DNA from: Planctomycetota bacterium | GTDB taxonomy: Bacteria; Planctomycetota; UBA1135; UBA2386 | DNA length: 64,000 bases | Assembly (NCBI GenBank): GCA_020848735.1 | Contig: JADLHO010000018.1 | Span: 1-64,000, forward strand | Reading direction: 5' to 3' | Shown: positions 50,822 to 54,959 of the stretch, in pieces | Position numbering within the stretch: the stretch's first letter is position 1 | Layout of the letters: every line of letters begins with the position of its first letter | Translations under genes and position numbers: made by a program | Notes under the pieces: model-generated | What the model was told of the DNA's origin: nothing | What the model saw: only the letters and a program-made list of their open reading frames with translations | The model's database searches: none

Positions 50822-52558
50822 ATGCACGCGATCGACTGGGTCCTGGTGCTCGTGCTGCCCGCCCTCGTGATCTGGGACGGGGTGCGCCGTGGCTCGGAGG
50901 CGAAGACCCTCGAGGGCTTCCTGCTCGCGGGTCGCAACGTCCGCTGGTGGGCCATCGGCCTCTCGGTGATGGCGACGCAGGCCAGTGCCACGACGATGAT
51001 CTCGATCACCGGGCACGGCTTCGAGCACGGCCTGCGGTGGCTGCACGTCTACCTGGCGCTGCCGTTCGCGATGGTGATCCTCTGCGCGACGATCGTGCCG
51101 TGGTTCACGCGCGCCCGGGTGTTCACGGCGTACGAGTATCTCGAGCACCGCTTCGACGGCTCGACCCGCGTGCTGGCGAGCGTGCTCTTCCTGATCTCGC
51201 GCGGCCTCGCGGTCGGCACGGCGCTCTATGCGCCGAGCATCGTGCTCGACGTCGTGCTCGGCATCCCGCAGTGGATCGCGATCCTCGCGATGGGCGGCTT
51301 CTCGATCGCCTACACGATGTTCGGCGGCAACGCCGCGGTGATCTTCACCGACGTCAAGCAGATGACGGTGATGTTCCTCGCGATCGGCGTGAGCCTCTGG
51401 ATCGTGATCACCCGTCTGCCCGAGGGCGTGGGTTTCGTCGACGCCCTGTCCATCGCCGGCGCATCCAACCGCCTCGAGGCGATCCACGTCGCACCCGACG
51501 TCCAACACACGCTCGCCGACAAGTACAACCTCGTCACCGCGCTCTTCGCCGGGCTCTTCTTCTTCCTCGGCTATTTCGGCGCCGATCAGAGCCAGGTCCA
51601 GCGCTACCTGGCCGGCAAGAACGTCGACCACAGCCGCGCGAGCCTGCTGCTCTCGGCCTTCGTGAAGGTGCCGATGCAGTTCGCCATCCTGCTGCTCGGC
51701 GCGCTGATCTACGTGTTCTGCATGTTCGAGGACACGCCGGTCTTCTTCCGCGCGGAGGCGATGGAGACCGCGGTCGCGGACGCACCGCCCGAGACGCGCG
51801 CCCGCTGGGAGGAGCTGAAGTCCGGGTTCGCCGTCGCCCACGCGGAGCGTCGTGGGGCCGCACTCGCGTTCGTCGCGGCGGACGGCACGCCGCGGGTCGA
51901 CGAGGCCGTCACCGCGCTGCGCGAGGGCAACGCCGAGCTCGCGGAGATCAAGCGTGAAGCGGTGAAGCTGCACAAGGACCTCACGGGCACGCAAGGTGGC
52001 GACGGCGACTTCATCTACCCGTGGTTCTTCCGCCGGATGTTCCCGGCCGGCCTGCTCGGTCTCGTCGTCGCCGCGATCTTCATCGCCGCGATGTCGAGCC
52101 TCGACGCCCAGCTCAACTCCCTCGCGACCTCGAGCGTGATGGACCTCTGGGCCCGTCGCCGCAAGGACGTGCAGCCGCAACGGGTGCTCATGCTCACGCG
52201 CTGGGCGACGCTCTTCTGGGGCCTCTTCGCCACGGTCAGTGCGTACTACGTCGCCTCGCTCGGACCGATGATCGAGGCCGTCAACATCATCGGCTCGATG
52301 TTCTACGGCTCGCTCTTCGGGGTCTTCCTGCTCGGGTGGATCTGCCCCTTCGCGCGCGGCGTCACCGGCCTCGTCGCCTTGGCCGGCGGTTTCGCCTGCA
52401 CGATGTTCACGCACTTCGTGATCAACCGCACGAAGGTCGTCATCGACGGCGCCGAGCAGTGGCCGGTCGGGTTCCTCTGGTACAACGCGATCGGTTGTCT
52501 CGGCGTGCTCGCGATCGGCGCCGGCTACGCGCTCGTGTTCCGTTCGCGACGCGCGTGA
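50822..52558 (+). CDS. Sodium/solute symporter (SSS family)
   Basis: A 578-residue inner-membrane protein with about 13 helices, of the SSS family that couples uptake of sugars, vitamins or osmolytes to Na+. The SSS signature is seen in TLEGFLLAGRNVRWWAIGLSVMATQASATTMI, FGGNAAVIFTDVKQM, YNLVTALFAGLFFFLGYFGADQSQVQRYLAGK, and the late FIAAMSSLDAQLNSLATSS. The conserved Ser pair and Ala-Gly in TM1 and TM8 typical of the Na+ site are present. The cytoplasmic loop around 300-380 is unusually long and acidic. The substrate is not clear. ATG 50822 follows the small accessory gene by 3 bp. Confidence 0.93.
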   Translation: MHAIDWVLVLVLPALVIWDGVRRGSEAKTLEGFLLAGRNVRWWAIGLSVMATQASATTMISITGHGFEHGLRWLHVYLALPFAMVILCATIVPWFTRARVFTAYEYLEHRFDGSTRVLASVLFLISRGLAVGTALYAPSIVLDVVLGIPQWIAILAMGGFSIAYTMFGGNAAVIFTDVKQMTVMFLAIGVSLWIVITRLPEGVGFVDALSIAGASNRLEAIHVAPDVQHTLADKYNLVTALFAGLFFFLGYFGADQSQVQRYLAGKNVDHSRASLLLSAFVKVPMQFAILLLGALIYVFCMFEDTPVFFRAEAMETAVADAPPETRARWEELKSGFAVAHAERRGAALAFVAADGTPRVDEAVTALREGNAELAEIKREAVKLHKDLTGTQGGDGDFIYPWFFRRMFPAGLLGLVVAAIFIAAMSSLDAQLNSLATSSVMDLWARRRKDVQPQRVLMLTRWATLFWGLFATVSAYYVASLGPMIEAVNIIGSMFYGSLFGVFLLGWICPFARGVTGLVALAGGFACTMFTHFVINRTKVVIDGAEQWPVGFLWYNAIGCLGVLAIGAGYALVFRSRRA

Positions 52559-52625
52559 GGTCTCAGTCGCGGCGGAGCACGATCGCGATCCGGCGCTCGC
52601 CACCCTCGCCGCCGAGCGTGAGGGC

Positions 52626-54959
52626 CTAGCTGCCCCCGCGGAGACGCGAGCGGTGTGCGGCGTGCACGGCGAGCGCCAGGCGGTCGGGCACGTGTTCGAA
52701 CGCCACGCGACCCTCGACGTCGCTCCGCTCGCCCCGGCCGTACGGCTCCGGCTGACCCGCGGCGATTGCGTCGGCGAGTTCCGCCGCACGCCGCGCACGC
52801 TCGGCCACCGCGCCCGCGGCGCCGATCCAGACCCACGCATCCGCGACCGGCCGGCCCGCGTCGTCACGGACCTCGACGACGAGGCGCGTGCCGCGGCCGA
52901 GCGTGATCGACACATCGCGCACCAAGGCTCCCGCCGCGAGTTCGAAGGGCCCGGCGCCCGCGATCGCGAAGCCGGGCACCTCGGCGATCAGCGCGTAGCG
53001 CGCGGGTTCCAGCGCGGTCAGGTGGAACTCCGCCGAGGGCGGCGGTGGGTCGTGGCCGATCGAGGTCTGGAAGGGTCCAGGCGTGATCGCGTTCCGCAGC
53101 AGCTCTTCGAGCGTCTGCGAGGAGTCCGCCGGCAACCACCAGGTGCGCACGCAGCCGTGCTCGGCGACGACGGGAGCACCGGTCGCCGCATCGACGAGGC
53201 GGCCGTGGATCTCCGCACCGTGCAGGCCGATCGACTCGGGATCGTCCTCGCGCTTGAGGCGCAAGGTCGCGACGCCGTGCGCGGGCAGGACGTCGTCGAG
53301 CGCGAAGCGCGACCAGGGCGAGCCGCCGCCGCGCAGCGTCACGGGACCGCCGTCGAGGCCGCGCAGGAGCACGCGACCCGCGGCATCGGTGTTGCCCACC
53401 GCGTGGCTGTCGTCGCCGCGCTCGGCGCTCACCATCGCCCCCGGGATGGGCATGCCCTCGCGCGCCGACACGACGCGGACCTCGAGCGGCACATCTTGGT
53501 TCAGCGTGACGGCGATCGGCGCGTTCGTCGCGTGCGAGATGACGAGCGGCAGCTCGTGACGGGCGAAGGGCTTGCCCCACGGGATCACGCGCACGAGCTT
53601 CTCGCCGAGATGATCGCCCTCGAGCGCGAGGCGACCTTCGACACCGCTCGTGCCGCCGGTCTCACGCGTGAGGCGCTCGACGCCACCTTCGCCGCGCTGG
53701 CGGCGGAAGACGGCGAGGTGCACACCCGGCACCGCGCGCCCCGCGCCATCGGCGACGACGAACTCCGCGCGCCACTCGCCCGCGACGTCCTGAGCCCATC
53801 GCCGCAGGCGCGCCTGGAGTCCACGGCGCGTCTCGTTCGGGCGCAGATGCACGACGTCCTGGGTGAAGCCGCCGACCCAATCGTCGCGCCGCGTCAGCAT
53901 CAGCCACTGCATGCCGTCGGGGTTGGTGATCGGCAGTTCGAGGGAGAAGCGACCCTGCGCGTCGCTCACGGCACGCACCTCGAACGGATCGGCCTTCCGG
54001 CTCAGCTCGCGGCTGTGGGCGGCGACGACCACGCCTTCGAGCGGGGCCTCGGAATCGTCGAGCACGAGACCTTCGAGCGTCGCGCGCGGCGCGGTCGCGA
54101 CGGCCTCGCGCGGATCGACGAGCCGCCGCACGGGTGGCGGGCTCGCGGGCGCAGGCAAGGGCGTACGCACGGGGTCCTGCTCGCCGACGGGCGCGTCGAC
54201 TCGAGACGACTCGACGGCAACGAGGACGGCGGCACGCGCATCGACTCGCTCGGCGGGGCCGGGCCCGCCACCCGTTTCGAAGGCGAGCCCCGCCCCGATC
54301 ACGGCCAGGACGAGCACGCCCACGGCCGCGAACTTTGCCATCGCAAGTCCGCCCGCGATCGAACCCGACAGGGCGAGCAGGGTCGCCTGCAGCGCGCCGG
54401 GCACCGCGCTCGCGACGGCCGTCGCGGGCAGCAGGCTCTCGAGCCGCGCACCCGCGGCGGCGAAGCCAACCTCGCGCAATCGATGGCGGAGGCGATCGAG
54501 CGCCGCGCGAACGCGGCCGGGCACCGTCGACTCGGCACAGCCGGTCAGGCCGGCGATCTCCGCCAGGGTCATGCCCTCGTGGAAGCGCAGCACGATCGCG
54601 GTGCGCTGGGACTCCTCCAGGCCCTCGACTCCCGCACGCAGGGCGGCGAGTTCGTCGGAGGCCATCGGTCTCTCACTCGGTTCTCGGTTCATCCTCGCGG
54701 TCTCCGTCTCGTGGTGACGACGGCGACGACCGGCCCGCAGTAGCGTGAGGGCCGTGCGGCTCGCGAGCCAGCGCAGGACGCGTTGCGCATCCTCCGACTC
54801 GGCAGGCAAGGGCTGCCTGCCACGCAACACGCACAGGAACACCTGCTGCGACACGTCCTCTGCGTCCGCGTCGCTGCGCACGATGCGCCGCGCCGCGCGG
54901 TAGACGGCCGCATGGTGTCGGCGCACCAGTTCCTCGAAGGTCTCGCGTTCGATCCGCAT
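52626..54959 (-). CDS. ECF sigma factor fused through a membrane helix to carboxypeptidase-regulatory-like domains
   Basis: A 777-residue fusion. Residues 1-75 are sigma region 2 (HHAAVYRAARRIVRSDADAEDVSQQVFL), and about 110-165 are sigma region 4 with a helix-turn-helix (QRTAIVLRFHEGMTLAEIAGLTGCAESTVPGRVR), both with ECF family patterns. A membrane segment (about 206-226) separates them from a Pro/Ala linker and some 520 residues of CPR beta-sandwich repeats (LEGLVLDDSEAPLEGVVV, ADGAGRAVPGVHLAVF, IHGRLVDAATGAPVVAEHG). The sigma part would lie in the cytoplasm and the repeats outside. ATG 54959 gives a complete region 2. A stop TAG ends it at 52626; the frame then stays open for 20 codons. 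It lies 108 bp from the divergent App1 gene. Confidence 0.88.
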   Translation of the reverse strand: MRIERETFEELVRRHHAAVYRAARRIVRSDADAEDVSQQVFLCVLRGRQPLPAESEDAQRVLRWLASRTALTLLRAGRRRRHHETETARMNREPSERPMASDELAALRAGVEGLEESQRTAIVLRFHEGMTLAEIAGLTGCAESTVPGRVRAALDRLRHRLREVGFAAAGARLESLLPATAVASAVPGALQATLLALSGSIAGGLAMAKFAAVGVLVLAVIGAGLAFETGGGPGPAERVDARAAVLVAVESSRVDAPVGEQDPVRTPLPAPASPPPVRRLVDPREAVATAPRATLEGLVLDDSEAPLEGVVVAAHSRELSRKADPFEVRAVSDAQGRFSLELPITNPDGMQWLMLTRRDDWVGGFTQDVVHLRPNETRRGLQARLRRWAQDVAGEWRAEFVVADGAGRAVPGVHLAVFRRQRGEGGVERLTRETGGTSGVEGRLALEGDHLGEKLVRVIPWGKPFARHELPLVISHATNAPIAVTLNQDVPLEVRVVSAREGMPIPGAMVSAERGDDSHAVGNTDAAGRVLLRGLDGGPVTLRGGGSPWSRFALDDVLPAHGVATLRLKREDDPESIGLHGAEIHGRLVDAATGAPVVAEHGCVRTWWLPADSSQTLEELLRNAITPGPFQTSIGHDPPPPSAEFHLTALEPARYALIAEVPGFAIAGAGPFELAAGALVRDVSITLGRGTRLVVEVRDDAGRPVADAWVWIGAAGAVAERARRAAELADAIAAGQPEPYGRGERSDVEGRVAFEHVPDRLALAVHAAHRSRLRGGS

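Follow-up and report, generated by a model that had tools for sequence, protein, structure and literature searches.

A fusion gene joining an ECF sigma factor to CPR repeats, encoded on the minus strand of a Planctomycetota contig, carries an in-frame TAG within its last 3%, and we consider it probable, at roughly two chances in three, that this TAG is a real nonsense substitution in the lineage of the genome, an ordinary event that involves no new decoding trick. The DNA analyzed, hereafter the window, is a stretch of 64,000 nucleotides from a metagenome-assembled genome. A first-pass annotation, made from the sequence letters, had offered a nonsense change, a sequencing error or readthrough to explain the stop; this proves to be the right short list with the nonsense change favored, and readthrough or recoding has no positive support.

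The sigma-CPR gene and its neighborhood

As it stands, the gene runs from an ATG at 54959 to the TAG (52626-54959, minus strand) and encodes 777 amino acids, with no other stop among the 777 codons ahead of the TAG. The ATG is common to a same-genus orthologue, which has the same MRIERETF start, and the 1000-aa frame given by a mechanical list of open reading frames was rejected as too long at its 5' end on this evidence. Counting the TAG as one position, the frame comprises 798 positions from the ATG to just before the next stop. The protein matches the Pfam families Sigma70_r2, Sigma70_r4 and CarboxypepD_reg. Sigma-70 region 2 (residues 11-79; 54723-54929, minus strand) and region 4 (residues 106-159, the union of two Pfam models; 54483-54644, minus strand) are confirmed by PF04542, PF04545, PF08281 and TIGR02937, all over cut-off, and the C-terminal CPR repeats by PF13620, over cut-off in two stretches; the top-scoring CarboxypepD_reg stretch covers residues 493-543 (53331-53483, minus strand). 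Between the sigma region and the CPR repeats lies a hydrophobic stretch that, by eye, resembles a membrane span.

The TAG occupies 52626-52628 on the minus strand and is followed in the same frame by 20 open codons (52566-52625; translation ALTLGGEGGERRIAIVLRRD) and a TGA at 52563-52565, presumed to be the ancestral stop, which confirms both stops as they were first annotated. The proximity of the TGA to the neighboring gene also holds, as four bases separate it from the end of a convergent sodium/solute symporter gene (50822-52558, plus strand; TIGR00813 over cut-off). A crude consensus scan of 52300-52900 detected no terminator hairpin that could let the TAG serve as the functional end of the gene (0.1 expected by chance). 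The arrangement differs in the sister genome, where a gene for a TerC-like membrane protein (named by eye; L010 3993-4706) follows the sigma-CPR gene, and an apparent symporter lies beyond it on the opposite strand. Because the TerC-like gene intervenes there and the corresponding gap in the window is the four bases 52559-52562, a gene seems to have been gained or lost at this junction.

Homologues read on past the TAG

Judged by comparison with relatives, the 20-codon tail is ancestral coding sequence, since the same-genus orthologue encodes an amino acid where the TAG stands and reads on, and all 16 aligned homologues likewise continue. The orthologue (G001:C32), from the one further genome in the genus that was compared, is 62% identical across query residues 1-803 and has no internal stop; its codon at the TAG column is GCG (Ala), and its TGA lies 21 codons further on. 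Further relatives were sought in 34 family genomes, counting that of the window; 25 of them had a match, and the search gave 30 loci (L059-L088). C-termini were inspected for 24 of these loci, one being the window itself; L079-L084 lie outside that set, and L084 is on the same gene as L073. The alignment was drawn from the other 23 loci, with 15 sequences at first and 16 once L068 was added; L061, L076, L078 and L085-L088 were excluded as short, partial or of other architecture.

The comparison of the codon in relatives that the first-pass annotation had proposed thus gives a sense codon in 16/16 homologues. All can be aligned beyond the TAG column and none stops there, so that neither kind of relative named beforehand as evidence against a truncation, one ending exactly at the TAG or one with unrelated sequence after it, occurs among these 16. 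Ends across the family vary by a few residues, with 14 of 15 homologues ending at the TGA column or about one residue from it, and the fifteenth extending a further 11 residues. A profile scan of genome contigs found 13 loci, every one continuing past the TAG column, with tails that are the same as those of 13 of the 16 aligned homologues; a single-sequence scan of genome contigs found no relative.

The tail itself also resembles coding sequence. Its ungapped score against the orthologue was equalled by a fraction of 0.0003 of 20,000 shuffles, and it retains an alternating hydrophobic pattern. When the 20 codons immediately beyond the stop were scored for coding potential in 655 predicted genes (864 kb of the genome), this gene ranked sixth, and by our reading of the translations the five genes above it extend into the next gene in the same frame. 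A chance open frame is ruled out by the homologues, the coding score and the shuffle test together.

Predicted structure of the tail

In an AlphaFold2 model of the read-through form, a single prediction from a shallow alignment of 13 homologues, model residues 290-296 (ERRIAIV; 52578-52598, minus strand) form a terminal beta strand. Mean pLDDT in this model is 90 for the last ten residues (291-300) and 79 for residues 281-290; for the last block before the TAG it is 69 in the truncated form versus 88 in the read-through form, with one prediction of each from a shallow alignment. The tail is therefore structural by prediction and would correspond to the usual last strand of a CPR repeat, a suggestion of the first-pass annotation on which the homologues and the model agree. 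The terminal strand found in homologues falls after the TAG in the sigma-CPR gene and so lies outside the encoded product. A Foldseek search of the PDB returned weak matches to multi-domain beta-sandwich proteins, with TM scores by query length of at most 0.29 in the best 50 of 720; carboxypeptidase D ranks 40 among those best 50.

Divergence of the tail and the origin of the stop

Six of the 20 tail residues are identical to those of the orthologue. The ends of 34 control orthologue pairs of similar body identity average 13.1 identities (SD 2.6), none of them as low, and among all orthologue pairs 1 of 195 has ends as low as this. Relative to the trend across the family's non-independent pairs, the tail lies about 2.8 residual SD low. 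Of the 17 tails it is also the most distant from the family, further than the orthologue's by 0.63 per column (95% bootstrap interval 0.04 to 1.41; 20 columns). For 20 codons only, tail dN is 0.84 and dS 0.52; dN/dS for the region before the TAG, against the same orthologue, is about 0.37 (0.29/0.79). Relaxed constraint after a real stop predicts such an excess of divergence and a base-call error does not, and the excess therefore mildly favors a real nonsense change over an error. Much of the divergence may nevertheless reflect a tail that is loose throughout the clade and not an effect of the stop, because the orthologue's tail, although uninterrupted by a stop, comes second in divergence among the 17. 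The full coding composition of the tail (GC3 19/20) and its hydrophobic pattern fit a very young stop or no stop.

Two details of the original proposal fare less well. The nonsense change had been called recent, which is not borne out, as the tail is unusually diverged. A route from TTG to TAG had also been suggested, and TTG is unsupported as the precursor codon: the orthologue has GCG, two changes from TAG, and among the one-step neighbors of TAG only TAT is rarer than TTG in the predicted genes (per 1000 codons, TTG 4, compared with GAG 52, CAG 26, AAG 21 and TCG 20).

Stop codon usage and decoding in the genome

The genome is a 277-contig assembly of 6.44 Mb, 89.3% complete with 6.92% contamination. 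Control genes were predicted in 864 kb of it, window included, with our own codon-score caller in place of a standard gene finder. The 659 predicted genes end in TGA (631), TAG (25) or TAA (3), an extreme usage at 71.5% GC. An extension could be measured for 24 TAG-ended genes, and by the threshold used it is not coding-like in 22; the median extension score of TAG genes is about that of TGA genes. The two TAG genes with coding-like extensions are the sigma-CPR gene and one other (C219), whose extension appears to be the next gene. Each of the three other TAG genes with orthologues ends near the orthologue's stop (offsets 0, -3 and -4), and one of these orthologue stops is also TAG.

Gene ends were also compared across 224 orthologue pairs, the sister-genome side of which covers 1.51 Mb. 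Ends lie no more than 5 residues apart in 201 pairs, and the sister frame is longer by at least 12 residues, the range of differences that was examined, in 10; the sigma-CPR gene is the one clear case among those 10 in which a short homologous tail has been left behind. Two genes with TGA stops, g69 and g542, also have extensions that score above shuffles (z 4.9 and 2.8; sigma-CPR z 3.7), with sister frames open for 192 and 384 residues more and with the best-scoring frame of each extension on the other strand. The pair of genes at G000:C126:7533-9602 and G000:C126:10525-11184, past whose TGA the sister frames are open for 192 and 384 residues, could represent 3' differences or antisense frames.

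No tRNA with a CTA anticodon was found among 41 tRNAs, a set with gaps (Cys and Ile, for example) from a genome that is 89.3% complete, and no pyrrolysyl-tRNA synthetase scored over cut-off in that same incomplete genome (best match to the PylS model 23.4 bits, cut-off 178.15). The RF1 gene prfA is present, over cut-off. RF1-like genes are found at G000:C50:472-1548 (513 bits) and G000:C24:40436-41506 (414 bits against a cut-off of 423), with a weaker third at 248 bits; the extra copies may reflect contamination of the bin or an additional release factor. The genetic code looks standard here, with TAG not reassigned, because there is no CTA tRNA among those found, RF1 is present, no PylS scored over cut-off and the other three TAG genes with orthologues end near the stops of those orthologues.

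Discussion

We favor a simple series of events in which a sense codon 21 codons ahead of the ancestral TGA would have mutated to TAG in the lineage of this genome, and translation would now be terminated there by RF1. The 777-aa product would keep sigma regions 2 and 4, the apparent membrane span and most of the CPR part, and would be without the last beta strand of its C-terminal, probably extracytoplasmic, domain. The TAG base is presumably real in the organism, and the truncated protein is presumably made, and either tolerated or partly impaired.

An error of base-calling, assembly or strain mixture, with the living gene reading on to the TGA, is unlikely but has to be taken seriously given the fragmentation and contamination of the assembly; the rest of the gene and the tail are intact, and errors at a low rate could produce a single clear clipping among 224 orthologue pairs. 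Arguing the other way, the divergence of the tail exceeds what a constrained C-terminus would lead one to expect, the site is far from a contig end (52.6 kb into 69.3 kb), and consensus errors that produce a stop are rare in general. The TAG could instead be the normal stop of the lineage in a protein whose end is variable, with nothing important lost, and it would leave a 67-bp convergent gap that is ordinary in this genome (75 of 91 convergent gaps are 70 bp or less); the position of the end does shift by a few residues within the family, and one homologue runs longer. This we consider very unlikely, as the final strand region is present in all 16 aligned homologues, nearly all of them stop at or right beside the TGA column, and the strand is confidently predicted, with confidence ahead of the TAG falling when the tail is removed.

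The remaining explanations have ribosomes passing the TAG. Regulated or low-level readthrough would yield one form that has the last strand and one that lacks it, and could account for a tail that still has the composition of coding sequence and its hydrophobic pattern; Belinky et al. (2021, PMC7918605) report that in-frame stops are widespread among bacterial genes under purifying selection and that most are short-lived. We nevertheless find it improbable, with no CTA-anticodon tRNA in the incomplete set recovered, no PylS over cut-off and RF1 present. A TAG in 0/16 aligned homologues means that stop and tail are not conserved together and gives no sign of a maintained device, and the 20 codons of the tail have no excess of silent changes. 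A leaky switch, giving mostly truncated product and a small readthrough fraction with the last CPR strand, is a somewhat longer shot still; if it were true, termination efficiency would determine how much of this membrane-anchored sigma factor has a fully folded sensor end outside the cytoplasm. Reassignment of TAG to an amino acid draws on the rarity of TAG as a terminator, and its likelihood is negligible: the tRNA set, the extension scores, the ends of orthologues, the PylS null and the presence of RF1 together rule out a genome-wide change.

With a nonsense substitution as the preferred reading, the biological weight of the case is small, and annotators would do well to mark the gene as shortened by a single stop, whether through loss of the C-terminal strand or through error. 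The case does illustrate how homology, tRNA content and a control on stops across the genome can distinguish nonsense at a 3' end from recoding within just one metagenome bin.

Among the titles and opening lines of abstracts listed, we recognized no published work on this sigma-CPR fusion. Its closest counterpart here is the ECF sigma/CPR protein of G001:C32, also from Planctomycetota, which is like the window gene in architecture, start and C-terminal pattern and differs in having a sense codon at the TAG column, a TGA 21 codons later and the TerC-like gene next downstream, rather than the symporter directly. The stops of Belinky et al. (2021, PMC7918605), reported to be widespread and in most cases short-lived, resemble ours in being single in-frame stops within a bacterial gene that is otherwise conserved, whereas that study focuses on stops at the same place in orthologues of more than one genome and the stop in the window is seen in one genome only; the sigma-CPR stop fits as one more case of the in-frame stops described there.
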